This document shows, piece after piece, positions 1,992 to 20,287 of a stretch of 34,352 nt of DNA (position 1 is the stretch's first letter; each line of letters begins with the position of its first letter). Under the pieces are notes generated by a model. It ran no database searches and had not been told where the DNA came from. It saw nothing but the letters and a program-made list of their open reading frames with translations. Location: positions 1 through 34,352 of the forward strand of contig JABSRB010000053.1 of the NCBI GenBank assembly GCA_013215375.1, in the 5' to 3' direction. The translations under genes were made by a program, and so were the position numbers. The DNA comes from Oceanospirillaceae bacterium (GTDB lineage: Bacteria > Pseudomonadota > Gammaproteobacteria > Pseudomonadales > Balneatricaceae).

Positions 1992-2873
1992 ATGTCATTA
2001 AGATTCAAATTTAATTTAATATTAATGCTAACCAGTATAATTGGCATCTTAATATCTGGCGTTATCTCTTTTAACCTGCAAAGAGAAAATGCACGCACAG
2101 AAGCGCTTGAAACTGCTGCCATTTTATTAGAGAGCGCAATCGCCGTGCGCAACTATACTGTTGAAGAGGTAAGGCCTTTAATTAGCGGCGCATCACAAAC
2201 CACCTTTTTGCCGCAAACCGTTCCCGCTTATGCTGCCGCTCAATACATTGCCAATTTACAAAAACGCCACCCCGATTACAATTACAAAGAAGCTGCCCTG
2301 AACCCAACAAACCCAAACAACCGCGCCTCGGATTGGGAAGCAGATATCATTAGTTATTTTAGAACTCACTCAGATGAGCGTATTGTCGGAGAGCGCGATA
2401 CCCCGACAGGGAGATCGCTGTATTTAGCCAAGCCCATTCGCATTACCAATGGTAAATGCCTCGCCTGCCACTCTACCCCCGCTGCTGCACCTAAATCTAT
2501 GCTCGCAATTTATGGCAATGCCAACGGCTTTGGCTGGAAACTCAACGAAGTGATAGGTACCCAAGTCGTATCTGTTCCTCTGTCTCTGGCACACACGCGC
2601 GCCGATAAAGAATTTTTATTGTTCATGGGCACTATTGTCATTGTTTTTTTTGCTATTGGTATCATGCTCAATATACTGCTCAACATTTTTGTCATCACCC
2701 CCGTCACCACTATGGCGAAACACGTCGATAAGGTCAGCATGGGCACGCTTAATCTAGAGCCTATCGTGATTACCGGAAAAGATGAAATAAGCTCCTTAGG
2801 TCGCTCGTTTAACCGTATGCAAAACAGCCTAGACAGCGCGGTTAAAATGCTCGATGAAACACTGGATGATTAA
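1992..2873 (+). CDS. Membrane c-type haem sensor: Tll0287-like (DUF3365) domain plus HAMP, no output domain
   Basis: The protein has 293 residues from the ATG at 1992, preceded by AAAGG. A first membrane helix (about 8-28) is followed by a periplasmic domain and a CxxCH haem-c site, C156-L-A-C159-H160. That domain has the layout of Tll0287-like/DUF3365 haem-binding PAS-like sensors. A second helix (about 208-236) leads to a HAMP-type linker (VITPVTTMAKHVDKVSMG, then KDEISSLGRSFNRM). The protein ends about 15 residues after the HAMP, so there is no kinase, methyl-accepting or cyclase domain in this chain. The next gene, a Ser/Thr kinase, starts 9 bases after the stop, so the signal may pass to that separate protein. 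Likely input is redox state, or a gas or small ligand at the haem; this is inferred. Confidence 0.82.
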   Translation: MSLRFKFNLILMLTSIIGILISGVISFNLQRENARTEALETAAILLESAIAVRNYTVEEVRPLISGASQTTFLPQTVPAYAAAQYIANLQKRHPDYNYKEAALNPTNPNNRASDWEADIISYFRTHSDERIVGERDTPTGRSLYLAKPIRITNGKCLACHSTPAAAPKSMLAIYGNANGFGWKLNEVIGTQVVSVPLSLAHTRADKEFLLFMGTIVIVFFAIGIMLNILLNIFVITPVTTMAKHVDKVSMGTLNLEPIVITGKDEISSLGRSFNRMQNSLDSAVKMLDETLDD

Positions 2874-2882
2874 CCAATTAAC

Positions 2883-4220
2883 ATGAATAAAACACCTAGC
2901 AGCTTTGGTAAATACCAAGTAGAAAAAGTCCTCGGCCAAGGTGCCATGGGCGTTGTCTACCAGGGCTTTGATCCTGTTATTGAGCGTACTGTTGCGATAA
3001 AAGTATTGCATGAACATCACTTAGCTGGCGAGCACGGCGAAGAGCTGAGCTTGCGGTTTAAGCGTGAAGCACAAGCTGCTGCGCGCTGTTTGCACCGTAA
3101 TATAGTGGCGGTTTTTGACTACGGTCATGCGGATAACCAAGACTATATAGTGATGGAGTATATAGAGGGGGAAGAGCTCAGCCAGTTCTTGCGCTCTGAG
3201 GAAAAATTAAGTACCGATGAGGCTGTTTTTATTACGCTATCGGTATTGCGCGCACTCACTGCTGCTCACCAGTTCAACATAGTACATCGCGATATCAAAC
3301 CCGCCAATATTATTTTGCTCAACGATGGCGAGGTTAAAGTTGCCGATTTTGGCGTCGCACTACTAGACAAATCAGACCTTACTTTAGCCGGCAACATGGT
3401 GGGCACGCCCAACTATATGTCACCTGAAGGACTGCGCGGAGAAACCGTTACCGAACAAGCTGATTTATACAGCACTGGCATGGTCTTACTAGAGATGTTA
3501 ACCGGTGCCAGACTTAGCCCACAACAGCTTTATACGATGCCAATCGCCGATTTTATAGATTCGATATTCGAGCAGCACTCTCATATATCCCTACCTTTGC
3601 AAAAAGTTATCCGCCAAGCATTAGCCCCTCTTCTAACAGATCGATATTTGAGCGCAAAAGCATTCATTGAAGGCCTAGAATCCCTTGCCAGCCTTGAAGC
3701 ACAAGCCGATGCAACTATCTCGGCAAAAGCGGGCATCCAGGAAAAATCCCAACAATTACTGGAACTCCCCCCTCAGACTCTGGCTGATTTAAAGCAGGAA
3801 TTAGCCACTCACTTGGGGCCTATGGCCAGTTTTGTGATCAAAAAAGCTTCAACCCACACTCGCTCCGCACGCGAGTTTATGCTGCAATTATCAGAGCACA
3901 TCAGCAACCCCGAACAGCGCGAAATATTTATTACTCAAGCCAGTAAAACTTTAGCGATTGACGACACAGTCCCCTATGCCACCTCTTCTGCCAACGCATC
4001 CGTAGCTACTGTGATTAATCAACCTGCACTCATCTTATCGACAGCACGACGTGAGTTAATCACCACAGCGCTTATTTTTTATATTGGCCCCGTGGCTAAA
4101 CATCAGATAAAACGCTATATAAAACGTGTTAGCAGTGATTCTGAACTCTGTGAATTACTGGCAGAACTCATTTTAGACCCCAGCGATAAACACTCATTTA
4201 AAGAGAAAGTACTCGATTAA
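2883..4220 (+). CDS. Soluble Hanks-type Ser/Thr protein kinase with duplicated C-terminal module
   Basis: This 445-residue protein has a complete kinase domain (about residues 8-270): glycine loop GQGAMG (18-23), VAIK with Lys40, alpha-C Glu62, HRDIKPAN with catalytic Asp137, DFG at 155-157, and GTPNYMSPE at 174-182. All the key residues of an active kinase are present. No transmembrane helix follows, unlike PknB-type receptors. The last 150 residues contain two related copies of a helical module of about 55 residues, each centred on a Gly-Pro-(Met/Val)-Ala motif followed by Ile-Lys; I cannot name this module. The gene starts 9 bp after the haem sensor and is almost certainly in the same operon. 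Substrates cannot be told from the sequence; the downstream histidine kinase is an obvious candidate. Confidence 0.92.
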   Translation: MNKTPSSFGKYQVEKVLGQGAMGVVYQGFDPVIERTVAIKVLHEHHLAGEHGEELSLRFKREAQAAARCLHRNIVAVFDYGHADNQDYIVMEYIEGEELSQFLRSEEKLSTDEAVFITLSVLRALTAAHQFNIVHRDIKPANIILLNDGEVKVADFGVALLDKSDLTLAGNMVGTPNYMSPEGLRGETVTEQADLYSTGMVLLEMLTGARLSPQQLYTMPIADFIDSIFEQHSHISLPLQKVIRQALAPLLTDRYLSAKAFIEGLESLASLEAQADATISAKAGIQEKSQQLLELPPQTLADLKQELATHLGPMASFVIKKASTHTRSAREFMLQLSEHISNPEQREIFITQASKTLAIDDTVPYATSSANASVATVINQPALILSTARRELITTALIFYIGPVAKHQIKRYIKRVSSDSELCELLAELILDPSDKHSFKEKVLD

Positions 4221-4318
4221 CTTTAGTTAGTAATTAAGTGCTTTTAAGAATAGACATAGACTTTAATATTTTATTAACAAATACTCTAATAGTTTTATTA
4301 CAACCATTAAGGGGCAGA

Positions 4319-6043
4319 GTGAATAATAATAGTGTTTTAGTCGCCCAATTAGAGACAATGTACCCGCAGGTAAAGTTTTTATTTATGGGGGTAGCGGCGC
4401 TTACCTTAGTTATCGTTAATATCTTTTGGGATAAAGTCGAGCTTATAACTTTGATTAGCTGGGCTTCTATCAGTACGTTATTAATTATTATCCGCGCTTT
4501 TTTTCTTATTTATTCCAAAAACAATTTAAACTTAAATAATGCCCGTATGCACGCGTCATTGTTTGCCCTTGGTAGTTTAATTTCTGGTTTTATTTGGGCG
4601 AGTGCAAGTTTTATTTTTTTGGATATAAACAATACTATCTCACTAATCGTAATAGTCACTTTACTAATGGGCTCTACCGCTGGCGCACTAGTCACCCTCT
4701 CCGCTTATTTACCTGCCTTTTACGGCTACAGCATTAGCGTATTAATACCATTAGCTTGGTTGCTGATCGACCAACCGCGCTCTGAAATAGCTCAAATAGG
4801 CTACCTTGTGGTAATCTATTTAATGGCGCTTATCGGCTATTCCCATGCCGTTAATCGCAATTTAAAACAGTTTATTGCACTGCGCTTTAACAACCAGGTA
4901 TTACTTAAAGATCTGACCAAGCAACGCGATATTGCCGAGCAGGCCAATATCGAAAAATCTCGTTATCTTGCCGCAACCAGCCATGATTTAAGACAGCCAT
5001 TACATGCTTTGCAGCTGTACTTAGGAAATTTAGAAACACTGGATAACACATCCCAACAACAACTTTTAATTACCAAGTCTATCACCGCTGGCACCACCTT
5101 AAATAAATTACTATCAGCTCTCATGGATGTCTCTAGATTAGACTCAGGTGAAGTGGCTTTAAACATGCAAAGCGTCGCCCTTGAAGACATCATTGGTGAA
5201 ATAGCCCAAGAGTTTCAGCCCAAGGCAGAGCTACATGACATCCAATTTCTCGTTACCCCGTTAGCGGTGAATGTCTTCAGCGATCCACTGCTATTAGGTC
5301 GCTGCATCAGAAACTTAGTCGATAACGCCTTTGCCCATGCCAATGCTCAGAAAATTATTATCAACACTTCTTTAGAAGCACAAAACCTAGTCAAAATATC
5401 TATTAACGATAATGGCATCGGTATTAAAGAAAGTGAAAAAGACAGTGTTTTTTCTGAATTTTACCAACTCAAAAATCCCGAAAGAGACAGAAACAAAGGC
5501 CTGGGACTTGGCTTAGCTATTGTAAAAAAATTGACGAAATTAATGGGACATGAGCTCCAACTAACTTGTGCAGAAGGTCAAGGCAGTCAGTTTTCTATTA
5601 CTTTAGCGGCGTCTGACTTACTCCCTAGCTCAAAGCTGATACCTGCTGAAAATCTTGATGTAAGTGGCTTGTTTGTGGTCATGGTCGATGATGATCCCGA
5701 TATATGTGAAGGCATGTCACTGACCTTAAAAAGATGGGGCTGTGAAGTGATTATCTGTAACGACACTCAGCAGTTAATTGATGAGTTAAATCGCTTAAAT
5801 TATACCGCCCCTGATATTATTATCGCCGATTACCGACTGCGCGAAAACTTGACTGGCGTGGAGACTATTAAACAGGTAAGAGCCCTGTTCAATCAGGAAA
5901 TCCCAGCCATTTTAATGAGCGGCGATACTGGTGAGACGGTGATTAAAGAAAGTGCGGGGATCAAATGTCTGTATCAGCAAAAACCCGTATCAGTACCCGA
6001 CTTAAAACAGCTCATTGTACAGATGACCAACAGCGACATTTAG
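4319..6043 (+). CDS. Hybrid sensor histidine kinase (multi-TM, HisKA, HATPase, receiver)
   Basis: From the GTG at 4319, which has AAGGGG just upstream, the protein has 574 residues. An upstream in-frame GTG at 4238 would add 27 residues but lacks a ribosome-binding site; ATG 4358 is another option. About six or seven hydrophobic helices fill the first 185 residues, with no recognisable periplasmic sensor domain. The dimerisation box SRYLAATSHDLRQPLHAL carries phospho-accepting His222. The ATPase domain shows the N box (NLVDNAFAHA), INDNGIGI and GLGLGLAIVKKL. The C-terminal receiver has an acidic VDDDPD cluster, Asp504 in IIADYRL and Lys555. It resembles NahK/ErcS-type hybrid kinases of gammaproteobacteria. 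Its probable partner regulator is the convergent gene that overlaps its stop codon. Confidence 0.92.
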   Translation: MNNNSVLVAQLETMYPQVKFLFMGVAALTLVIVNIFWDKVELITLISWASISTLLIIIRAFFLIYSKNNLNLNNARMHASLFALGSLISGFIWASASFIFLDINNTISLIVIVTLLMGSTAGALVTLSAYLPAFYGYSISVLIPLAWLLIDQPRSEIAQIGYLVVIYLMALIGYSHAVNRNLKQFIALRFNNQVLLKDLTKQRDIAEQANIEKSRYLAATSHDLRQPLHALQLYLGNLETLDNTSQQQLLITKSITAGTTLNKLLSALMDVSRLDSGEVALNMQSVALEDIIGEIAQEFQPKAELHDIQFLVTPLAVNVFSDPLLLGRCIRNLVDNAFAHANAQKIIINTSLEAQNLVKISINDNGIGIKESEKDSVFSEFYQLKNPERDRNKGLGLGLAIVKKLTKLMGHELQLTCAEGQGSQFSITLAASDLLPSSKLIPAENLDVSGLFVVMVDDDPDICEGMSLTLKRWGCEVIICNDTQQLIDELNRLNYTAPDIIIADYRLRENLTGVETIKQVRALFNQEIPAILMSGDTGETVIKESAGIKCLYQQKPVSVPDLKQLIVQMTNSDI

Positions 6044-6669
6044 CGACCGCCACCGGCACGATTGATACCTAAAATTTCTGCTCCTTTGTGACTCGCTTGT
6101 ACCCGGTTATCAACGTCTAATATTCGCAACAATTTTGTCACATATTGTTTGATCGTGCCCTCCGATAGAAACATCCCCTCTCCTATCTCTTTATTGCTTT
6201 TCCCCTGCACGATAAACGCCAAAATTTGCAACTGTTTATCATTGAGTTGTACTTGCATATTGGGGCCATGACCAACAGCCCCCTGCAACGTATTAGGCAG
6301 GTAAACACCGCCTTCAACAACCTGCTTTATGGCTTTTAGAATGGTTGTCCCCTGTGCAGATTTTGGCACATAACCTTTCACTCCGGCATTAATACACTGC
6401 TGTATTACACGAGGATCCTCTTCCGCTGAGACGATAATCACTGGGGTAGAGCCCAGGCCTTCACATATTTTTTTGACACTAATAGCACCTTGCATATCGG
6501 GCATATACAAATCCAAAATGATCAAATCAAACTGCTGCTCTGCGATCGCCTGCTGTGTAGAAAGTAAATCACTGGCAAATAATATTTCCACATTCTTATC
6601 TAGCTGCTGTAGCCAAAGTGCGATACTGTCACGAAAAAGACCGTGATCATCCGCTAATAACAACTTCAT
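6040..6669 (-). CDS. NarL/LuxR-family response regulator
   Basis: This 209-residue protein has an N-terminal receiver (acidic pair D7-D8, phospho-acceptor D53 in LIILDLYMPD, Lys103 in GYVPKSA). A C-terminal LuxR-type helix-turn-helix (about 145-200) contains LNDKQLQILAFIVQGKSNKEI and FLSEGTIKQYVTKLL, the first broken as LNDKQLQILAFI and VQGKSNKEI. A strong AAGGGA ribosome-binding site precedes the ATG by 6 bases. The gene is convergent with the hybrid kinase and their stop codons overlap by 4 bases (6040-6043), a tail-to-tail arrangement that suggests long co-inheritance. It probably binds DNA on phosphorylation; its target genes are unknown. Confidence 0.93.
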   Translation of the reverse strand: MKLLLADDHGLFRDSIALWLQQLDKNVEILFASDLLSTQQAIAEQQFDLIILDLYMPDMQGAISVKKICEGLGSTPVIIVSAEEDPRVIQQCINAGVKGYVPKSAQGTTILKAIKQVVEGGVYLPNTLQGAVGHGPNMQVQLNDKQLQILAFIVQGKSNKEIGEGMFLSEGTIKQYVTKLLRILDVDNRVQASHKGAEILGINRAGGGR

Positions 6670-7100: not shown

Positions 7101-7772
7101 TTATTGGTCATCTATATAAGCTTTTGCATCAAAGCTGCGGATCCAATCGGGGTAAAACACCATGATCGCGGTAAGCAAAATTCCATTGAGCAAACCCTCG
7201 GGAAATATAGTCAGAATAATGATGGTCACTATGTCTTGCTCTATCTTAAACCAGGGGTATACATCTGTTAACCAGAGCGTGAGACTGACCGATAAACCGG
7301 TCAATGCAGCGCTGAGTCCCGCGCAAAAAAAACCACACACAAACAGATAAACGAAGAAATTTTTAGGCATGGTCTTGGTGACCCACAACATCACCAGCTG
7401 AGTCACCGCCACCGGCAGCAAAATAGTTAATACACCATTGGCGGCAAAGTTAGACCAATCCCCTCCTGAGAATAAGGCAATAAGTGCTAGCGCGACACTA
7501 CCGCAAACAATGGCTAAATCCCAACCCAGCACTAAACACAGCGCCGTCATACCGAGAAAGTGAATACTAACGCCCTCGGACAGATCCGCTCTAATACTCC
7601 AAATAATAACTAACAACACGGTTGCCCCAAAACACAGATGCTGCAACCCCTGATTAACCCTCAATTTATGCCAGGGAGCGCGATAGAGGGTAAACAAAAA
7701 AACACAGGCATAAAAAAGGTTAAACACATAAAAACTAAGGCCTGGGAGGATTTCAGCGTTGAGGCTAATCAT
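7101..7772 (-). CDS. CbiM-like energy-coupling-factor transporter membrane protein
   Basis: This 223-residue protein has about six hydrophobic helices. Features shared with CbiM/NikM-like (COG3235-type) proteins include SIHFLGMTALCLVLGWDLA, a central helix pair, and a C-terminal PEGLLNGILLTAIMVFYPDW segment, here shortened to EGLLNGILLTAIMVF. CbiM-type proteins bind a metal ion or vitamin and work with an ATPase and a coupling protein; neither is encoded nearby, so it is either an orphan S-component or served by proteins elsewhere. Its ATG overlaps the rimI stop codon by 8 bases (ATGATTAG), so translation is probably coupled to rimI. The substrate cannot be stated. Confidence 0.7.
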   Translation of the reverse strand: MISLNAEILPGLSFYVFNLFYACVFLFTLYRAPWHKLRVNQGLQHLCFGATVLLVIIWSIRADLSEGVSIHFLGMTALCLVLGWDLAIVCGSVALALIALFSGGDWSNFAANGVLTILLPVAVTQLVMLWVTKTMPKNFFVYLFVCGFFCAGLSAALTGLSVSLTLWLTDVYPWFKIEQDIVTIIILTIFPEGLLNGILLTAIMVFYPDWIRSFDAKAYIDDQ

Positions 7773-10683: not shown

Positions 10684-10760
10684 GTCTTTAGTCTTTAGTC
10701 TTTAGTCTTTAGTCTTCTGACTATCGACTTGTGACTAACGACTAACGACCAATCCCTATG
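10684..10760. repeat. Heptanucleotide array, GTCTTTA x4 grading into inverted GACTAAC-type units
   Basis: Four perfect GTCTTTA units (10684-10711) are followed in register by GTCTTCT, GACTATC, GACTTGT, GACTAAC, GACTAAC, GACCAAT and CCCTATG. The GACTAA core is the reverse complement of TTAGTC, so the block changes orientation. The last unit contains the stop codon of epmA (10756-10758). Confidence 0.9.
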
Positions 10761-11721
10761 CCCTAGTGATATCAAAGGGCAACACCTCTTTAATGTGCCC
10801 TTTACCTAGGGCCAACATCAATAATCTATCAAATCCCAAGGCAACGCCTGCACACTCTGGCATGCCTTGTGCGAGGGCAGTGACTAAACGTGACTCAACC
10901 GGTCGCTGCGGTAGTTTCAACAACTTGCGCTGTTGCAAGTCAGCGCTAAAACGCCGGGCTTGCTCTTCACTATCAGTTAATTCGTGGTAACCGTTGGCCA
11001 ATTCAACGCCATCGATAAACAACTCAAATCTAGCGGCCACCGCCACACCTTCTGCATCGATTTTCACTTTGGCTAACGCCGCTTGACTCGCGGGATAGTC
11101 GTAGATAAAAACAGCACCTTTTAACTGCGGTTCTATACAGTGTGAAAACAACAAATTTAACCAGCCATCAGTGTCGTAATCACCACTGACCTCTATATGC
11201 TCGCGCATTGTCTGTGCTAATAACGAATCACTGGCACTGACAATATCTAGCCCTAAATACTCTACAAACGCCTGGCGATAACTGATGCGACGAAAGTTTT
11301 TTATGTCGGTAACCGCCGTTATTAAATCACTGACTTCATCCATCAACTGCTGCTCATCCAGGCCCAATCTATACCACTCAAGCATGGTAAATTCAGGATT
11401 GTGCCGATGACCTATTTCGCCGTTACGAAATACTTTCGCCATTTGATAAATACAGCCACTGCCAGCAGCTAACAAACGTTTCATGGCATATTCAGGAGAG
11501 CTTTGCAGATAATAACTAATCGGATCATCTTCTACAAAATGGCGATACTCGACCACTAGTGAATCAATAAAAGGATCGCTCACTGCCGCTTGGGAAAGCA
11601 CCGGCACATCCACTTCAAGCACCTCACGCCGGAAAAAAAACCGCCGGATCTCGGCCAACATTTTGCCGCGCTTATGCAATGTTTGTATAGTGGCACTTGG
11701 CTGCCAGAGATCATTATTCAA
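10756..11721 (-). CDS. epmA: EpmA, EF-P (R)-beta-lysine ligase (GenX/PoxA/YjeA)
   Basis: This 321-residue class II lysyl-tRNA-synthetase-like catalytic domain lacks the N-terminal anticodon-binding domain, as expected for EpmA. Motif 2 is seen in KVFRNGEIGHRHNPEFTMLEWYR (key parts FRNGE and HNPEFTMLEWY) and motif 3 in GVALGFDRLLMLALG. It activates beta-lysine and attaches it to the conserved lysine of EF-P (Lys33 in the efp of this window). The protein ends in the usual ITRA. efp lies upstream on the same strand and epmB is divergent beyond it, so the whole known ligation route except the EpmC hydroxylase is within 3 kb. A heptamer array follows the stop directly. Confidence 0.95.
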   Translation of the reverse strand: MNNDLWQPSATIQTLHKRGKMLAEIRRFFFRREVLEVDVPVLSQAAVSDPFIDSLVVEYRHFVEDDPISYYLQSSPEYAMKRLLAAGSGCIYQMAKVFRNGEIGHRHNPEFTMLEWYRLGLDEQQLMDEVSDLITAVTDIKNFRRISYRQAFVEYLGLDIVSASDSLLAQTMREHIEVSGDYDTDGWLNLLFSHCIEPQLKGAVFIYDYPASQAALAKVKIDAEGVAVAARFELFIDGVELANGYHELTDSEEQARRFSADLQQRKLLKLPQRPVESRLVTALAQGMPECAGVALGFDRLLMLALGKGHIKEVLPFDITRA

Positions 11722-11754
11722 CTGTTAACTCCAGAGTTGAGGCTCTTTAACCAT

Positions 11755-11787
11755 AAAAAAGGCCCATATCAAAGATAGAGGCCTCTT
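11755..11787 (-). terminator. Rho-independent terminator of efp
   Basis: On the minus strand AAGAGGCC (11787-11780) pairs with GGCCTTTT (11764-11757) across a 15-base loop, with one G-U pair, and the stem runs into six T. It lies about 110 bases beyond the efp stop, so the TTTTAGC array would be part of the efp 3' untranslated region. Confidence 0.7.
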
Positions 11788-11793
11788 AAAATG

Positions 11794-11905
11794 TTTTAGC
11801 TTTTAGCTTTTAGCTTTTAGCTTTTAGCTTTTAGCTTTTAGCTTTTAGCTTTTAGCTTTTAGCTTTTAGCTCGAAACTCGTAGCTCGAAACTAATCCCTA
11901 TCCCT
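11794..11905. repeat. Heptanucleotide array, 11 perfect TTTTAGC units plus degenerate units
   Basis: Eleven perfect TTTTAGC units occupy 11794-11870. In register after them come TCGAAAC, TCGTAGC, TCGAAAC, TAATCCC and TATCCCT. The efp stop codon (11898-11900) lies at the junction of the last two units. Units next to the gene are diverged and those far from it are identical. Confidence 0.95.
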
Positions 11906-12467
11906 TAGACGCACGACTTACATAGTCACCGGTACGGGTATCTATTTTCAGCAGCTCGCCCTGTTCAATGAACAGTGGTACACGTACGACAGCACCGGTA
12001 CTCAATGTAGCAGGCTTTGATCCGCCCTGTGCTGTATCGCCCTTAAGGCCTGGATCAGTCTCTGTCACTTCAAGCTCAACAAAGTTTGGCGGGGTAACCA
12101 CAATCGCTCGGTCATTCCACAATGTGATAATGCACATGGTATTGTCTTTCAACCATTTAGCACTGTCGCCAACGGCACTTTCTTCTACAGCGTACTGCTC
12201 ATAAGTTACCGGCATCATGAAATTAAACATGTCGCCATCTCTGTACAAATATTCCATGTCACATTCTACAACATCAGCAGCTTCAAGAGATTCGTTGGAC
12301 TTAAAAGTTCGCTCCCATACACGGCCTGTTAACAGGTTGCGCATTTTAACACGGGTGAAGGCCTGGCCTTTACCTGGCTTGACGAATTCAACTTGTTGCA
12401 TTGAACAAGGATCGCCATCGATTATAACTTTTAAACCGTTTTTAAGCTGATTGGCTGAATATGACAT
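11898..12467 (-). CDS. efp: Translation elongation factor P
   Basis: This 189-residue protein has the three-domain length of EF-P and is collinear with the E. coli protein throughout. The modification loop is [11 protein letters not shown] with the target lysine at position 33 (E. coli Lys34). The C-terminal domain shows [20 protein letters not shown] and [20 protein letters not shown] rescues ribosomes stalled on polyproline. I chose the ATG at 12465-12467, which gives the family N-terminus; a GTG at 12500 would add 11 residues. The tail SRASKG is two residues longer than in E. coli, and its final codons border the repeat array. It is divergent from epmB, with epmA downstream. Confidence 0.97.
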
Positions 12468-12520
12468 TAAATTTCTCTGTATCGATAATTGGGATTTCAC
12501 AGCATTCTACTACAAAGGAG

Positions 12521-12526
12521 ATTATA
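12521..12526 (-). promoter_or_regulatory. Likely -10 box of the efp promoter
   Basis: The minus strand reads TATAAT exactly here, about 54 bases upstream of the efp ATG. The -35 at optimal spacing is poor (ATAAAG), so only the -10 is convincing. Confidence 0.4.
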
Positions 12527-12549
12527 TGTAGCCGCTATGCCTGCTTTAT

Positions 12550-12578
12550 TTGACAGCTATTGTACTTAAAAGCACAAT
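12550..12578 (+). promoter_or_regulatory. Possible sigma-70 promoter for epmB
   Basis: A perfect TTGACA (12550-12555) is followed after 17 bases by CACAAT (12573-12578), a 4/6 match to the -10 consensus. The epmB start codon is 100 bases downstream. Confidence 0.4.
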
Positions 12579-12677
12579 GCGAGCAAATTTTAGAGTATTT
12601 CAGATTTTAGTACTCAGTCGCAGCATATTGATGCGTCTAAATTTTTACCATATTACTGCGATTATAGGCACAGCACT

Positions 12678-13700
12678 GTGAACAACAATATCGACACCCT
12701 GCAATTATCACTAGATAACGACCCCAGCTGGCAGTATCAATTAGGTCATTGTATAAAAGATTTGAAGAGTCTCTGTGACTTTACCGCACTCGATATTGAA
12801 AAAATCGCTTTCTCAGCAGGGGCTAGTCATGACTTTCCCATGCAAATCCCCTACGCATATGCATCGCGTATCAAAAAAGGCGACTATAACGACCCACTGT
12901 TGTTACAAGTATTACCCCAGCCTAGAGAGCTTGAAAACATCCCTGGATTTACTAAAGATCCGCTGGAAGAAGCCGACGCCAATCATCTAACCGGGCTAAT
13001 CCACAAATACCAACACCGTGTATTACTCACCTTAAGCGGCGCCTGCGCCATTAACTGCCGCTACTGTTTTCGCCGGCATTTCCCCTATGCGCAGAACAAT
13101 GTAGGCTCACAACAATGGGCAGACATCATTGAATATATAAAAGCAGATAGTAACATTGAAGAGGTGATTTTTTCCGGGGGCGACCCTCTAGCGACTAGCG
13201 ATAAAAGACTCGATAAATTCATTAATGAGCTCGATCAAATAACCCATGTACAGCGTTTACGTATCCACACGCGTCTGCCGGTGGTAATTCCCAAACGTAT
13301 TTCAGAGCAACTTTGCAATACCTTGCGTGACTCCAGACTGCAAACGGTGGTGGTGATACACGCCAACCACGCCAATGAATTTGATGAAGAGGTAAGTGCT
13401 GCACTGGCTAAACTGAAACAAGCAGCTGTCACTGTGCTTAATCAAGCAGTGTTATTGAAGGGCATAAATGACACCCCAGATAGCCAAAAAGCACTGCATT
13501 TAGCTTCCTTTAAAGCAGGCGCCCTGCCCTATTATTTATTTGTATTAGATCAAGTGCAGGGGGCTGCACATTTCAATATCGAAGATAGTGAGGCGCAACA
13601 GTTAATGCGTGAATTGCAGTGCATGTTACCAGGTTACTTAGTTCCCAAACTCGCCCGCGAGATTCCTGGGAAGCCACATAAAACGTTATTGGCCATCTGA
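12678..13700 (+). CDS. epmB: EpmB, EF-P-specific lysine 2,3-aminomutase (radical SAM)
   Basis: This 340-residue KamA-family radical SAM protein converts alpha-lysine to (R)-beta-lysine for loading onto EF-P. The 4Fe-4S motif is CAINCRYCF with C123, C127 and C130, followed by RRHFPY. IEEVIFSGGDPLA is the SAM/PLP region typical of the family, and GALPYYLFVLDQV lies near the C-terminus. Length equals that of the E. coli protein. The start is a GTG at 12678; no ATG gives a family-length N-terminus. It is divergent from efp with a 210-base shared upstream region. Confidence 0.95.
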   Translation: MNNNIDTLQLSLDNDPSWQYQLGHCIKDLKSLCDFTALDIEKIAFSAGASHDFPMQIPYAYASRIKKGDYNDPLLLQVLPQPRELENIPGFTKDPLEEADANHLTGLIHKYQHRVLLTLSGACAINCRYCFRRHFPYAQNNVGSQQWADIIEYIKADSNIEEVIFSGGDPLATSDKRLDKFINELDQITHVQRLRIHTRLPVVIPKRISEQLCNTLRDSRLQTVVVIHANHANEFDEEVSAALAKLKQAAVTVLNQAVLLKGINDTPDSQKALHLASFKAGALPYYLFVLDQVQGAAHFNIEDSEAQQLMRELQCMLPGYLVPKLAREIPGKPHKTLLAI

Positions 13701-15003: not shown

Positions 15004-16344
15004 ATGGCGAAAAAGCTATTTATAAAAACTCACGGTTGTCAAATGAACGAGTACGACTCGTCACGTATGGCGGATCTCCTTGGCGAGAGCCATGAACTCG
15101 AATTAACAGACAACCCTGAGGACGCCGATGTATTGCTCCTCAACACTTGCTCTATTCGTGAAAAAGCCCAGGAAAAAGTATTTCATCAGCTGGGTCGCTG
15201 GCGCAAGCTTAAAGAGAAAAACCCCAACCTGAAAATTGGTGTTGGCGGCTGTGTCGCCAGCCAAGAGGGCGATAAAATCCTCAAGCGCGCACCTTTTGTT
15301 GACATGGTATTCGGCCCACAAACACTACACCGCCTACCTGAAATGATCGATTTAACCAATCAGGGAAAAATGGGTGTAGTTGATGTCAGTTTCCCTGAGA
15401 TTGAGAAATTCGACGTATTGCCTACACCTGTCGCTACAGGTGCCGAAGCTTTTGTCTCGGTCATGGAAGGTTGCAGTAAGTACTGTACTTTTTGCGTAGT
15501 CCCCTACACCCGCGGCGAAGAAGTCAGCAGACCCCTTGATAGTGTTTTAAAAGAGTGCACCGAACTGGCAGAGCAAGGCGTGCGAGAAGTAAATCTACTC
15601 GGACAAAACGTCAATGCTTATCACGGCGAAACTGAAGATGGCGAATTTGCTGATCTTGCCGAATTAATCCGTTTGGTCGCTGCCATTGACGGTTTAGATC
15701 GGATACGATTCACCACCTCGCATCCGGTTGAATTCACCGATTCTCTGATTGATGTATACGCAGAAGTACCTGAGTTAGTCAGCCATCTGCACTTACCGGT
15801 ACAGTCCGGATCAGACACCATTTTGATGGCGATGAAACGTGGCCACACTATTCTTGAATACAAATCGAAGCTGCGTAGAATCAAAAAGGTTCGCCCAGAC
15901 ATCTGTTTTTCCTCTGATTTCATTATCGGTTTTCCCGGTGAGAGCGAGTACGATTTTGAGCAGACGATGAAACTGATCGAACAAATAGGCTTCGACATTT
16001 CCTATAGCTTCATTTACAGCCGCCGACCTGGCACACCTGCCTCAGACATTCCAGACACTGTCACAGAAGAGACCAAAAAGGGTCGTTTAAAAATCTTACA
16101 AAATAAGATCACCCAAAACGCGCAAATGATTAGTCGTGCGATGGTTGGCAGTACCCAGCGTATTTTGGTCAACAGTTATTCCAAGAAAGATCCAGGCATG
16201 TTGTCAGGGCGTACCGAGAACAACCGTGTGGTTAACTTTCGCTGTGACGATCCGCACTTGATCGGAAATTTCGCCAATGTCGAGATTCTCCAAGCCTACA
16301 CCAACTCTTTAATTGGTAAGTTAATCAGCTCTGAGCTCGATTAA
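15004..16344 (+). CDS. miaB: MiaB, tRNA-2-methylthio-N6-isopentenyladenosine synthase
   Basis: This 446-residue methylthiotransferase adds a methylthio group to i6A37 of tRNAs reading UNN codons. The N-terminal UPF0004 domain has cluster cysteines in [12 protein letters not shown] (C12), [10 protein letters not shown] and GVGGCVASQ. The radical SAM motif is [19 protein letters not shown] with C157, C161 and C164 at the same positions as in E. coli MiaB. A TRAM domain closes the protein (from about 380). AAGG stands 6 bases before the ATG. It opens the miaB-phoH-ybeY-corC-lnt block. Confidence 0.98.
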
Positions 16345-16355
16345 ACTGACAGATT

Positions 16356-16384
16356 GAGCCGCCTAAAATTTAGTCAGGCGGTTT
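16356..16384 (+). terminator. Weak terminator or attenuator stem after miaB
   Basis: CCGCCT (16359-16364) pairs with AGGCGG (16376-16381) over an 11-base loop, extended by A-T and G-T pairs. Only TTTA follows, so read-through into phoH is likely. Confidence 0.4.
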
Positions 16385-16456
16385 AGCTCCGATTAATATA
16401 ACTCTCAGTAATCGTGCTACAATTGAGTCATTATCTTGTATTGAGGAGTAAACATA

Positions 16457-17461
16457 TTGAAGACTAGTGAGTCACTAAGCTTTACTTTGTCACACAGTGA
16501 CACTCAGGCACTTGCCAACCTCTGTGGACAATATAATGAACACCTTAAACTCATCGAAAAGCGCCTCAACGTTATTATCAACAACCGCGCTACCGATTTT
16601 AACATTACCGGCGACATTCACTTAGTTAACAAAGTTGCGCTGCTGCTCAAAGAGCTGTATCGCGATGCTTGTGACGGAAAATTATTAGATTTAGAGCAAG
16701 TACATCTATGCCTGCAACAATCTGGCATTGAACAAGATACTACAGCCTTAGAAGGTGCCGCTGATGCTGGCTTGGTGATTCGCGCGCGTAAAGTGATGGT
16801 TAAGCCCCGCGGCCCCAACCAACAAAAATATGTGCGTTCAATACTCACCTCTGACATCAACTTTGGTATCGGCCCCGCCGGTACTGGCAAAACCTATCTC
16901 GCTGTTGCCTGTGCAGTAGAAGCGCTAGAAAAAGAACAAGTAGAGCGCATTGTATTGGTCAGGCCCGCCGTTGAAGCCGGTGAAAAACTGGGCTTTTTAC
17001 CTGGCGATTTAGCACAAAAGGTCGACCCTTATTTACGCCCGCTTTATGATGCCCTCTTTGAAATGCTTGGCTATGAGCGCGTGGCAAAATTGCTTGAGCG
17101 TAACATCATAGAAATTGCGCCCCTGGCCTACATGCGCGGACGCACACTCAACAACTCTTTTGTCATCTTAGACGAGAGCCAAAATACCACCCGTGAGCAA
17201 ATGAAGATGTTCTTAACCCGTATCGGGTTTGGCTCTACGGCAGTGATTACCGGTGATATTACCCAGATAGATTTACCCAAAGGCACCCCTTCGGGACTTC
17301 GTCACGCCGCTGAAGTACTCGATGGCGTTAAAGGTATTGGCTTTAGCTACTTCTCCTCGAAAGATGTGGTGCGCCATCATCTGGTACAACATATCGTTGA
17401 AGCATATGACAGATACGAACTTAAACAGAGCAACCCACCTAAATTGACCGTCACCCGATGA
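16457..17461 (+). CDS. ybeZ: PhoH-like ATPase (YbeZ)
   Basis: This 334-residue P-loop protein starts with TTG at 16457, supported by GAGGAG 8 bases upstream; no ATG fits the family N-terminus. The Walker A is GIGPAGTGKTYLA (about residues 136-148), Walker B is FVILDESQNTT, and the ITGDITQIDLP motif matches PhoH/YbeZ. It works with YbeY in rRNA maturation and ribosome quality control in other bacteria, probably as an RNA-dependent ATPase. The stop codon overlaps the ybeY start by 4 bases (ATGA), so the two are translationally coupled. Confidence 0.95.
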   Translation: MKTSESLSFTLSHSDTQALANLCGQYNEHLKLIEKRLNVIINNRATDFNITGDIHLVNKVALLLKELYRDACDGKLLDLEQVHLCLQQSGIEQDTTALEGAADAGLVIRARKVMVKPRGPNQQKYVRSILTSDINFGIGPAGTGKTYLAVACAVEALEKEQVERIVLVRPAVEAGEKLGFLPGDLAQKVDPYLRPLYDALFEMLGYERVAKLLERNIIEIAPLAYMRGRTLNNSFVILDESQNTTREQMKMFLTRIGFGSTAVITGDITQIDLPKGTPSGLRHAAEVLDGVKGIGFSYFSSKDVVRHHLVQHIVEAYDRYELKQSNPPKLTVTR

Positions 17462-17919
17462 GTACAGAATTAGAAATTCAATTTGCCACACAAACCCAGC
17501 CACTACCTACTCAAGCACAGCTACAAACGTGGGTAGACGTGGCGCTCAATCAATATCCCCAGCAGTTTTCAATCTGTATTCGCATTGTCGACGACACTGA
17601 AAGCCAAGCTTTAAACAGCGAGTATCGCGGTAAAGATAAACCCACTAATGTGCTGTCATTTCCCTTTGAAATACCAGAGTGTGTCGAGGTTGAAAGCGAG
17701 ATCCTCGGCGATCTAGTGGTTTGTGCACCCGTGGTAGAAAAAGAGGCTGCTGAGCAAAATAAGCAACTTTTTGATCACTGGGCGCATATGATTATTCACG
17801 GCACCTTGCATCTTTTAGGTTTCGACCATATAAAGGATGATGAGGCTGAGGAAATGGAGCAACTGGAGCGAGACATTCTTGCTAAGCTGCAAATCGCAGA
17901 CCCTTATTTTATTCAATAA
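17458..17919 (+). CDS. ybeY: YbeY, rRNA maturation endoribonuclease
   Basis: This 153-residue single-domain metalloprotein has the zinc motif HGTLHLLGFDH (HxxxHxxxxxH) at about residues 117-127 and the upstream SxExRGKDKPTNVLSFPFE block, here SEYRGKDKPTNVLSFPFE. YbeY processes rRNA 3' ends (16S in E. coli) and is needed under heat stress. Length is the usual 150-155. It overlaps phoH by 4 bases and precedes corC by 35. Confidence 0.97.
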   Translation: MSTELEIQFATQTQPLPTQAQLQTWVDVALNQYPQQFSICIRIVDDTESQALNSEYRGKDKPTNVLSFPFEIPECVEVESEILGDLVVCAPVVEKEAAEQNKQLFDHWAHMIIHGTLHLLGFDHIKDDEAEEMEQLERDILAKLQIADPYFIQ

Positions 17920-17954
17920 TTGTTAACTATTAAAAGCGTGGAGCTTTACAACTA

Positions 17955-18794
17955 ATGACAGAAGATCGACCGGAAAAACCACGAAGTATATTTGGGCGTA
18001 TCGCCCAGGCATTATCGTTTGATCCAAAAACCAAGCAAGAGGTGCTAGACGTAATAGAGGAAGCCGTTGAAGATAACTTATTAGACAGCGAAGCACTCTC
18101 TATTATCAAAGGTGCAATGCAAGTTGCCGATCTTCAAGTGCGAGACATTATGGTCCCGCGTTCAAAAATGGTGGTAGTAGAGGCAGACCAAACCCTCAAA
18201 GAGTTCCTGCCAACTATCATCTCTAGTGCTCACTCACGATTTCCTGTGATTGGTAAAAGCCCCGATGAAATCATCGGCGTATTACTTGCCAAAGACCTAT
18301 TACCCAATTTATTAGATAAAAACGAAACCGAGTTTACGGTACAAGATAAACTGCGAAAAGTAACTTTTATCCCAGAGAGCAAAAGACTCAATATTCTATT
18401 AAAAGAATTCCGCGCCACCAGAAGCCACCTTGCTATTGTGGTCGATGAATACGGTGGTATTGCCGGACTGATCACCATCGAAGATGTATTGGAACAAATC
18501 GTTGGCGAAATTGAAGACGAGCATGATGCTATTGATGACGATGGTAACATTCGCCCTTTTGACGATAATGCCTACCTTGTCAAAGCGCTGACTGAGCTTG
18601 AAGATTTTGACGAGTATTTTGGCACCAAGTTTAATAGCTACCAATTTAATACCGTCGGCGGTATCGTCACCAAACGCTTTGGGCATTTACCGCAGAAAGA
18701 CGAAGAGATTGAAATTGACGGCTTTAAGTTTAAAGTTCTCTCATCAGAAAATCGTCGCATCAGACTGCTTCAAGTAGAACGGATGGTCACCTAA
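17955..18794 (+). CDS. corC: CorC/YbeX, CBS-pair protein
   Basis: This 279-residue cytosolic protein has a short N-terminal segment, then VRDIMVPRSKMVVVEADQ, shown here as the DIMVPRSKMV motif opening the first CBS domain. A second CBS domain ends in YGGIAGLITIEDVLEQIVGEIEDE, key part GLITIEDVLEQIVGEI. A CorC_HlyC transporter-associated domain fills residues 200-279. There are no membrane helices, which separates it from CorB/YfjD. In enterobacteria it is linked to Mg/Co efflux and to ribosome function with YbeY. It is followed after 2 bases by lnt. Confidence 0.95.
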   Translation: MTEDRPEKPRSIFGRIAQALSFDPKTKQEVLDVIEEAVEDNLLDSEALSIIKGAMQVADLQVRDIMVPRSKMVVVEADQTLKEFLPTIISSAHSRFPVIGKSPDEIIGVLLAKDLLPNLLDKNETEFTVQDKLRKVTFIPESKRLNILLKEFRATRSHLAIVVDEYGGIAGLITIEDVLEQIVGEIEDEHDAIDDDGNIRPFDDNAYLVKALTELEDFDEYFGTKFNSYQFNTVGGIVTKRFGHLPQKDEEIEIDGFKFKVLSSENRRIRLLQVERMVT

Positions 18795-18796
18795 GC

Positions 18797-20287
18797 GTGT
18801 GGCTTTCGGCTTTATTAGCACTAATATCTGGCGCAATAACTACTTTAGCATTTGCGCCTTTTGATATTTTTGCAATTGCACTAATCACCCCTGCAGCACT
18901 GTACATACTGTTAAATAAACGCAGTATTAAACAGGCCTGCCTGCTCGGCTGGTTATTTGGATTGGGATTTTTTGGCTCAGGGATTTCCTGGGTCTATGTC
19001 AGCATTCACACTTATGGCAACACGCCAGCTCCATTGGCCGCCCTGCTCACTTTGATTTTTTGCGCAGCCCTTGCACTGCTGTTTTTAGGGCAAATTTGGC
19101 TGTATCGAAAGCATTTCTACGCCAGTCATAAAGTTATAAGTTTTGCAGTATTATGGTTAGTATTTGAATGGTTACGCAGCTGGCTCCTAACCGGCTTCCC
19201 CTGGTTATACCTCGGTTACACCAGCATTGACACACCCCTGGCACCACTGGCCTCAATCGGCGGTGTTTGGCTCAGTTCAGCCGTTGTCATCGCTATTAGC
19301 TTATCAATTGCACATGCTCTAGAAGCTCAAACTAAACGCGCGATTGGACTGGCCATTGCCATCCCTACCCTCGCCATCATGGTCAGTTTAAACACTCCTG
19401 CCAACTGGACCAAAAGCTCTGGTGAGCCTATCGACATCGCTATAATACAGCCTAACATCCCACAATTAACCAAGTGGAACAGCTCCTATTTAGCAGGCAT
19501 TTTAAACAAGCACTACCAGAGCACAGAACCCTTATTAGGCAACAAAGTCATCATCTGGCCGGAGACCGCCATACCGAGCTTGTACCCAGACGTCGCTGAA
19601 TATTTGGCCCCGTTAGTAAAGAGGCAAGCGGAATTGGGCGGATCATTAATTAGCGGTATTCCCAGCATGGTCCCCGATATAGAACATCCTTTAGGGCGGC
19701 GCATTCACAATTCAATCTACAACCTAACCCAGGACACTATCTACCACAAACAGCGTTTAGTGCCCTTTGGCGAGTACGTGCCTTTACAAGATACATTCAG
19801 AGATTTATTCAATTTTTTAAATATTCCCGACCTCACTTTTAGCCGGCCCAAGATTGAACAGCAAGCATTACTACAAGTGGGGGATTATCAGTACAGTACC
19901 GCAATTTGCTACGAAATCGCCTATCCGGAATTAGTGCGACAATACAGCAAAAATGCCGACTTGATCCTCACCTTATCGAACGATACTTGGTTCAGTCACT
20001 CCATCGGCCCAGATCAGCATTTTCAAATCGCTAGAATGCGTGCCATCGAAAACGGACGCTGGCTTGTTCGCAGCGCCAACAATGGCATTAGCGCTATAGT
20101 AAATCCACAGGGAGAGGTCGTGCATATAGCACCGCGCTATCAAGAGGCGATACTTGAGGGAAAGGTAGTACCTATGCAAGGGTTAACACCTTACCAGCGC
20201 ACAGGTCACTGGCCTTTAGTCACTCTATATTTTTTAATTCTGGCTTTTATAGGGTGGCGTAACAGGCGGGTACCGCTAACTAACTAG
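18797..20287 (+). CDS. lnt: Apolipoprotein N-acyltransferase
   Basis: This 496-residue inner-membrane enzyme transfers an acyl chain to the N-terminal Cys of diacylated lipoproteins such as BamE in this window. About seven N-terminal helices occupy the first 190 residues, then the periplasmic nitrilase domain carries the triad E256 (WPETAIPSL), K318 (HKQRLVPFGEYVP) and C371 (AICYEIAYPE). A last helix is at 475-490. The start is a GTG two bases after the corC stop, so it depends on upstream translation. The stop TAG (20285-20287) is formed by the CTAG end of an inverted-repeat element. Confidence 0.97.
   Translation: MWLSALLALISGAITTLAFAPFDIFAIALITPAALYILLNKRSIKQACLLGWLFGLGFFGSGISWVYVSIHTYGNTPAPLAALLTLIFCAALALLFLGQIWLYRKHFYASHKVISFAVLWLVFEWLRSWLLTGFPWLYLGYTSIDTPLAPLASIGGVWLSSAVVIAISLSIAHALEAQTKRAIGLAIAIPTLAIMVSLNTPANWTKSSGEPIDIAIIQPNIPQLTKWNSSYLAGILNKHYQSTEPLLGNKVIIWPETAIPSLYPDVAEYLAPLVKRQAELGGSLISGIPSMVPDIEHPLGRRIHNSIYNLTQDTIYHKQRLVPFGEYVPLQDTFRDLFNFLNIPDLTFSRPKIEQQALLQVGDYQYSTAICYEIAYPELVRQYSKNADLILTLSNDTWFSHSIGPDQHFQIARMRAIENGRWLVRSANNGISAIVNPQGEVVHIAPRYQEAILEGKVVPMQGLTPYQRTGHWPLVTLYFLILAFIGWRNRRVPLTN

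Follow-up and report, generated by a model that had tools for sequence, protein, structure and literature searches.

A HAMP-terminated haem-type sensor and a separate serine/threonine kinase as a likely receptor in two polypeptides, with a repeat domain as the proposed coupler

HAMP domains act as relays within one protein, and to our knowledge it is open what receptors that end in HAMP talk to. This question is raised by two adjacent genes in a 34,352-nucleotide stretch of DNA from an Oceanospirillaceae bacterium (assembly GCA_013215375.1, contig JABSRB010000053.1; hereafter the window, meaning the whole stretch). One of them encodes a membrane protein, here called the sensor, with a periplasmic Tll0287-like (DUF3365, sCache_heme) domain and a HAMP domain, while the other encodes a serine/threonine (Ser/Thr) kinase. 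Two HAMP-ending receptors are already known, Af1503 (PMC3585426) and a nitric oxide (NO)-binding protein of Pseudomonas azotoformans (PMC12889525, a 2026 preprint). A first-pass annotation of the window had described an output-less CXXCH/HAMP membrane protein, an intact kinase gene 9 bp further on, a hybrid histidine kinase and a convergent LuxR-type regulator, and both this description and its coordinates were borne out by open reading frames and Pfam searches (Table 1). It had also proposed a two-gene receptor kinase acting in trans. Action in trans is well supported on genomic grounds; the constant partner of the sensor is, however, the kinase's C-terminal domain, hereafter C, rather than the kinase domain itself. 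We consider it likely that the products of the two genes are two parts of one receptor, in which the HAMP domain of the haem sensor would switch a detached effector in trans via C.

The Tll0287-like domain of the sensor matches PF11845 with 143 bits (cut-off 24.1), and hydropathy analysis places hydrophobic stretches at residues 3-30 and 204-242. Of the canonical layout of HAMP receptors, the HAMP domain after a membrane segment is present but the fused output domain is missing, and the Pfam search gave no domain match C-terminal of HAMP. The frame is open from position 1887, homologues align from the ATG at 1992, and the stop codon at 2873 is separated by 9 bp from the start of the kinase gene, both genes being intact. 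Six orthologous sensors align end to end, and in 107 aligned sensors the C-terminus lies 6-31 residues (median 15) past the FNRM column of HAMP. Since all of these proteins stop shortly after HAMP, the missing output is, to judge from the alignment, a family feature and not a truncation, and the damage confined to this strain that the first-pass annotation had allowed for is ruled out. The same holds for a truncated or frameshifted chemoreceptor or kinase, which was rejected on the basis of the equal-length orthologues and of a nonsynonymous divergence (dN) far below the synonymous one (dS). Between the window and its closest relative, G003 (Osedax symbiont Rs1), dN and dS were 0.089 and 1.65 for the sensor and 0.20 and 2.1 for the kinase, with both dS values near saturation. 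A second species carries the same gene pair, with a sensor 86% identical to that of the window, and the pair occurs in many proteobacterial genera. The CXXCH motif is kept in 91 of 91 non-redundant sensors, and this motif, taken together with the published family, makes the sensor a putative haem protein.

The kinase shows a Pkinase match over residues 11-254 (E value 2.6e-50) and no hydrophobic stretch. Its tail of about 180 residues, which is unassigned and was missing from the first-pass annotation, contains C, composed of two copies of a unit built around a GPxA motif (kinase residues 312 and 402). No sequence family match to C was found in Pfam (E value up to 0.1), NCBIfam or PDB. In an AlphaFold2 model of the kinase (mean predicted local distance difference test score 86, predicted template modelling score 0.67, 41-row alignment), each unit is predicted to form a 27-residue helix followed by two short ones (residues 297-323, 329-337 and 343-356 in unit 1; 387-413, 419-427 and 433-444 in unit 2), and the units are joined by a low-confidence stretch (residues 362-379). 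The catalytic Lys, HRD Asp and DFG Asp are intact in 94 of 97 kinases; one of the three exceptions is cut by a contig end and the other two are degenerate. Both degenerate kinases belong to genome G413, which has two sensor/kinase-C loci (L174 and L175), and they are likely pseudokinases, judging from their catalytic residues.

The association was followed from the sensor to its partner by scanning the genome collection for sensor relatives, of which the best 80 of 192 confirmed ones were used. In 78 of these 80 loci, a kinase gene, a C-domain gene or both lie near the sensor on the same strand, 73 times within 600 bp downstream. These 73 comprise 66 loci in which a kinase-C gene starts at most 600 bp downstream on the sensor's strand, three with a downstream kinase gene whose C part is contig-cut or in the next frame, and four with a downstream C gene without a kinase domain, three of which have a kinase-C gene upstream as well. 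Five further loci have the kinase-C gene upstream only, 13 to 592 bp off, with an intervening gene in L103. Two loci are partnerless: L107, where the contig starts about 150 bases before the sensor, and L108. A less selected sample was drawn from the PF11845 matches in 390 genomes of the order, in which 34 further loci from at least 140 genomes with PF11845 were picked by score and open-frame length (about 270-470 residues; L150-L152 are longer). All 19 order-wide loci of the sensor subfamily (profile scores of at least 367) have an adjacent C gene, which in 17 of them encodes a kinase domain, while no kinase of this kind lies next to the Tll0287 gene in any of 18 other such loci of the order (profile scores 83-218). 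Sensor homologues regularly found without the kinase, the outcome that the first-pass annotation had named as damaging to its proposal, were thus not encountered within the subfamily; its broadest form, in which any short DUF3365 protein would be followed by a kinase, did not survive. Furthermore, the gene order of sensor and partner varies among loci, so that their linkage does not reflect one frozen operon.

The reverse search, in which an alignment of C alone was compared with whole genomes, led back to the sensor. C is rare, being found in 28 of 369 genomes of the class, in 5 of 337 from a second class of the phylum and in 5 of 398 from the phylum, which gives 35 distinct C-bearing genomes. 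A sensor of this type adjoins C in 32 of them, and sensor and C co-occur in 33, so that co-occurrence is near-obligate. Two of the 32 adjacent sensors are cut by the contig start (G565 keeps residues 123-290 and G498 only 247-290). In the one unlinked case, G694, a single contig carries the sensor at 1.809 Mb and the kinase-C gene at 2.069 Mb (about 260 kb apart), and the sensor coordinates are those of the partnerless locus L108. In G425, the neighbour of C is a different HAMP-terminated sensor, with a dCache_1 domain. Among 57 relatives, a full-length sensor is present in six, and single-sequence search detected C in five genomes, all within those six; in the sixth, a divergent C was detected by the profile (L035). 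The window genome itself encodes five Tll0287 proteins, four of which carry PAS-HisKA, GGDEF, GGDEF and HisKA-HATPase-receiver parts, respectively, and its single C match adjoins the sole Tll0287 sensor without an output. The window kinase is one of five kinase-like matches in that genome.

What is attached to C is exchanged among relatives. Counting only once those C proteins whose last 60 residues are identical left 112 distinct proteins, which by the profiles used comprise 74 kinase-C, 23 kinase-cyclase-like-C, 9 cyclase-like-C and 6 with C only, the last including two fragments (L048 and L187). The cyclase-like (class III) part matches Guanylate_cyc, PF00211 (E value 8e-9 in L105). In L212 (2601-4981), a Tll0287-HAMP sensor gene overlaps the start of a gene whose product is an MscS-type channel (PF00924, E value 7e-11) that carries one C unit, and L191 has a weak, sub-threshold ACT-like stretch before C. 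On a quick tree of 99 sensors, from which two partnerless ones of the 107 were omitted and in which identical sensors were merged, the arrangement requires at least 11 changes as compared with a mean of 39.8 in shuffles, and therefore it is inherited together with the sensor but has changed over repeatedly.

The mechanism that we infer, covering the HAMP-C contact, the direction of signalling, the ligand and the kinase targets, is as follows. The membrane protein would sense in the periplasm by means of a c-type haem, with NO or redox state as the most likely signal, and the resulting change would travel to the cytoplasmic end of HAMP, which has no output of its own. There, C of the separate kinase would dock, and the signal would switch the kinase in trans. 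C would be a coupling module, which in relatives may connect this sensor type to a class III cyclase-like enzyme, to a kinase together with a cyclase-like part and, in one case, to an MscS channel. The HAMP end is a candidate docking site for C, as suggested by residue conservation: of 107 sensors, 106 have R275, all 107 have S279 and 105 have A283, versus 8, 7 and 5 of 31 control HAMP rows, although the control rows are gapped at 279 (9/31) and 283 (20/31) and some rows are near-copies. As for the ligand, in 91 periplasmic domains no Cys or His beyond CXXCH is conserved in at least 60%. The protein of P. azotoformans, which has two transmembrane helices and a HAMP domain and lacks the axial Cys, is described in the preprint as releasing NO slowly, like known NO sensors (PMC12889525). 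By analogy with that protein, NO is the leading ligand candidate, though we would put its chance at somewhat under even; redox state comes next.

HAMP-terminated sensors of other kinds may use C as well. Outside the subfamily five such proteins were met, and in four of them a C-unit gene directly adjoins. A dCache_1 HAMP-terminated sensor stands beside a small one-C-unit protein in L192/L217, a case found via C and hence not an independent draw, and a PF21623 HAMP-terminated sensor stands beside another in L024/L215, from the window's own family, with a gene overlap of 4 bp. Two divergent Tll0287-HAMP sensors, 27% (L135) and 24% (L136) identical to that of the window, have no adjacent kinase. 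Directly upstream of the former lies a 94-residue C-unit frame (L135:4889-5170, minus strand; E value 4.7e-6 in 2,327 frames), and the start of the latter is overlapped by one of 91 residues (L136:3580-3852, minus strand; E value 2.5e-6 in the same number of frames). Neither the L024 C-repeat protein nor the L135 sensor gave a match when used to search plasmids. Because C units lie directly beside L135 and L136, it becomes more probable that the GPxA repeat is a general plug that docks on the free cytoplasmic HAMP end of various output-less sensors (two Tll0287 subfamilies, dCache_1 and PF21623), one sensor driving interchangeable detached effectors, namely a kinase, a cyclase-like enzyme, a mechanosensitive-type channel or small adaptors. 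We judge the chances of this extension to be slightly better than even. If it is true, it gives orphan HAMP-ending receptors a mechanism and adds a signalling route alongside fused histidine kinases and chemoreceptors. As a lead only, the L135 and L136 sensors may be of the P. azotoformans type, and the small C-unit frames may be the missing partners of such sensors.

Two other accounts of the co-occurrence have to be weighed. The flow could be reversed, so that the kinase acts on the sensor, e.g., by phosphorylating HAMP or the tail, with C as a substrate-docking domain and the haem protein being tuned. This would give identical co-occurrence and docking, and it finds a possible target in HAMP Ser279, which is invariant in 107 of 107 sensors; a HAMP domain behind a sensor domain is nevertheless established as a signal relay, and since the cyclase-like-C, MscS-C and small C-only partners lack a kinase domain, phosphorylation is not the common purpose of the association. 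We therefore regard reverse flow as improbable. The proteins could also be co-regulated neighbours that make no contact, the haem protein being a periplasmic redox protein and the kinase serving the same physiological problem independently. Redox roles have been proposed for stand-alone members of the haem family (PMC12889525), and the frames of L031-L152 and the window include no sensor-C or sensor-kinase fusion, which speaks for separate functions and also counts against a receptor in two polypeptides. On the other hand, HAMP is conserved throughout the 107 sensors, the gene is under purifying selection, and sensor and C stay together despite changes of effector and of gene order and, once, despite being unlinked, which makes this explanation unlikely too.

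Several further points, like the gapped control rows above, weigh against a C-coupled receptor. The MscS, dCache_1 and PF21623 pairs are single cases, and the HAMP-terminated protein of L009/L216 has no C-unit neighbour. The two G413 kinases lack the full set of catalytic residues. The sensor call in G498 is based on the end of HAMP, as the contig holds just the last 43 residues, and G699 has C but no sensor match, on a contig of only 3.2 kb. A plasmid of Rippkaea encodes a HAMP-ending, subfamily-like sensor of 302 residues without a C neighbour in the stretch examined. Finally, the C profile initially came from genes beside sensors, though the surveys were genome-wide, and many of the sampled genomes are metagenome bins. 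With these points taken into account, we still favor the two-polypeptide receptor.

The pair is also carried by plasmids. Nine plasmid records match the sensor, six proteobacterial and three cyanobacterial. All six proteobacterial records are annotated with a DUF3365 protein followed by a serine/threonine kinase, and these kinases carry C; no kinase or C gene was found within the stretch examined of the three cyanobacterial ones. Five plasmid pairs (L220, L221, L222, L225 and L226; Paraburkholderia, Caballeronia and Skermanella) adjoin type VI secretion genes, with a PP2C phosphatase gene next in two, which suggests that the pair may provide an alternative to the PpkA pathway there. As type VI genes are near only 8 of 125 loci, five of them these plasmids, the association is a side branch. 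The window itself gave no match to seven type VI queries (PP2C, TagF, TssB, TssC, Hcp, TssH and part of TssM; fha was not among them), so its locus lacks the position in a type VI cluster that marks the PpkA pathway.

In many gammaproteobacterial loci, the gene preceding that of the sensor is predicted to encode an exported protein, which has a GFWPTWP motif (e.g., L042:6957-7982, L058:6915-7976 and L105:7499-7972). A profile of this protein matches in 35 of 80 loci, and a motif scan of 86 loci gave at least 29 frames, all of which either end at most about 150 bp ahead of the sensor or run into its extended frame. The domain is C-terminal, with a lipobox-like Cys and a long linker in several loci, and two Cys are invariant in 17 aligned rows. 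The two members tested have no Pfam family. It may serve the sensor as a periplasmic partner; a search of the window genome did not find it, while the positive control, G056, was detected.

The features of the locus are collected in Table 1. The frame of the histidine kinase is open from 4238 and its homologues start near the GTG at 4319, and the LuxR regulator gene overlaps the histidine kinase gene by 4 bp. The first-pass annotation had suggested that the sensor/kinase pair feeds these two genes. A single four-gene pathway of sensor, kinase, hybrid histidine kinase and LuxR regulator would agree with the gene order shared by two genomes of the same genus (L039 and L040) and with the resemblance of the histidine kinase core to the NahK/ErcS family (NF041832, 289 bits), although this best family match stays under the curated cut-off of 400. 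Homologues of the pair (at least 59% identity) are nevertheless confined to these 2 of 80 loci, being missing at comparable identity from the other 77 and absent at the locus in G006, a third genome of that genus. As a general feature the link is therefore rejected, and for the window we consider such a pathway very improbable. L065 has a 32% identical histidine kinase on the opposite strand, and four further loci have weaker ones. Elsewhere in the window, a CbiM-like membrane protein (PF01891, 223 residues) is encoded downstream of the LuxR gene at 7101-7772. The region 10756-13700 holds a class II tRNA-synthetase-like protein (321 residues), a 200-residue minus-strand frame and then a radical SAM protein (340 residues), which we take to resemble the EpmA / EF-P / EpmB set for EF-P lysine modification. 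Finally, 15004-20287 encodes, on one strand, what are presumably a MiaB-like radical SAM protein with TRAM, a CorC-like CBS protein and an apolipoprotein N-acyltransferase, an ordinary conserved cluster.

Table 1. Features of the sensor/kinase locus and its neighbours (window positions).
Feature	Position	Strand	Basis
Sensor gene, 293 residues: periplasmic Tll0287-like (sCache_heme) domain, two membrane segments, HAMP, no output domain	1992..2873	+	Open reading frame, Pfam, six-orthologue alignment, hydropathy
Tll0287-like domain PF11845, residues 32-196	2085..2579	+	Pfam E value 1.1e-41; same coordinates in genome search
CLACH, putative c-type haem attachment motif (CXXCH), residues 156-160	2457..2471	+	Sequence; CXXCH in relatives
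HAMP domain, residues 234-280	2691..2831	+	Pfam E value 7.4e-9
End of second HAMP helix, residues 275-283, candidate docking surface	2814..2840	+	R275, S279 and A283 nearly invariant
Ser/Thr kinase gene, 445 residues, soluble	2883..4220	+	Open reading frame, Pfam, hydropathy, AlphaFold2 model
Hanks-type kinase domain, residues 11-254; Lys40, HRD Asp137, Asn142, DFG Asp155	2913..3644	+	Pfam PF00069, catalytic residues
C domain: two predicted helical repeats, GPMA (residue 312) and GPVA (residue 402); proposed HAMP-coupled adaptor	3756..4202	+	AlphaFold2 model
Hybrid histidine kinase (HisKA, HATPase, receiver); neighbour outside the conserved module	4319..6043	+	Pfam, locus comparison
LuxR-type response regulator, convergent; neighbour outside the conserved module	6040..6669	-	Pfam, locus comparison

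The sensor/C module offers a concrete and widely conserved candidate answer to the question of what a HAMP-ending receptor talks to, namely a detached effector with an undescribed helical domain, and two genes suffice to make this question testable. It further points to a route by which haem sensing could act on Ser/Thr phosphorylation in bacteria and, in some lineages, on the control of type VI secretion. No report of the sensor/kinase pair was found in the open-licence literature searched (DUF3365/Tll0287; HAMP with Ser/Thr kinase; DUF3365 with PpkA). Among known systems, Af1503 of Archaeoglobus fulgidus is, like the window sensor, a membrane protein with HAMP and no cytoplasmic output, and it is the best PDB sequence match of the window sensor's HAMP; unlike the latter, it is termed non-signalling and has no periplasmic input domain, and the available part of its description names no partner (PMC3585426). 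The sCache_heme sensor of P. azotoformans (WP_033902098) likewise combines a periplasmic Cache-type domain, CXXCH, two membrane helices and HAMP; the preprint text names no Ser/Thr kinase partner, and the words 'serine' and 'operon' are absent from its main text (PMC12889525). With the PpkA kinases of type VI secretion, the plasmid copies of the pair share their genomic setting, but PpkA, unlike the window kinase, is a single chain that includes a membrane helix and a periplasmic part (PMC12607579). The PASTA/PknB-type receptor kinases have a related kinase domain, StkP and PknB being among the best PDB sequence matches of the window kinase. In these proteins, sensor, membrane helix and kinase form a single chain with PASTA domains. 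The window kinase has neither a PASTA match in Pfam nor a membrane helix by hydropathy, and with 270 bits against the PASTA kinase family NF033483 it does not reach the cut-off of 450. In CetA/CetB of Campylobacter jejuni, the detached part is a PAS sensor and the output is a chemotaxis domain. That system is, as proposed here, a bipartite receptor made from two genes (PMC2628428), but in the window system it is the sensor that sits in the membrane and the effector that is detached.

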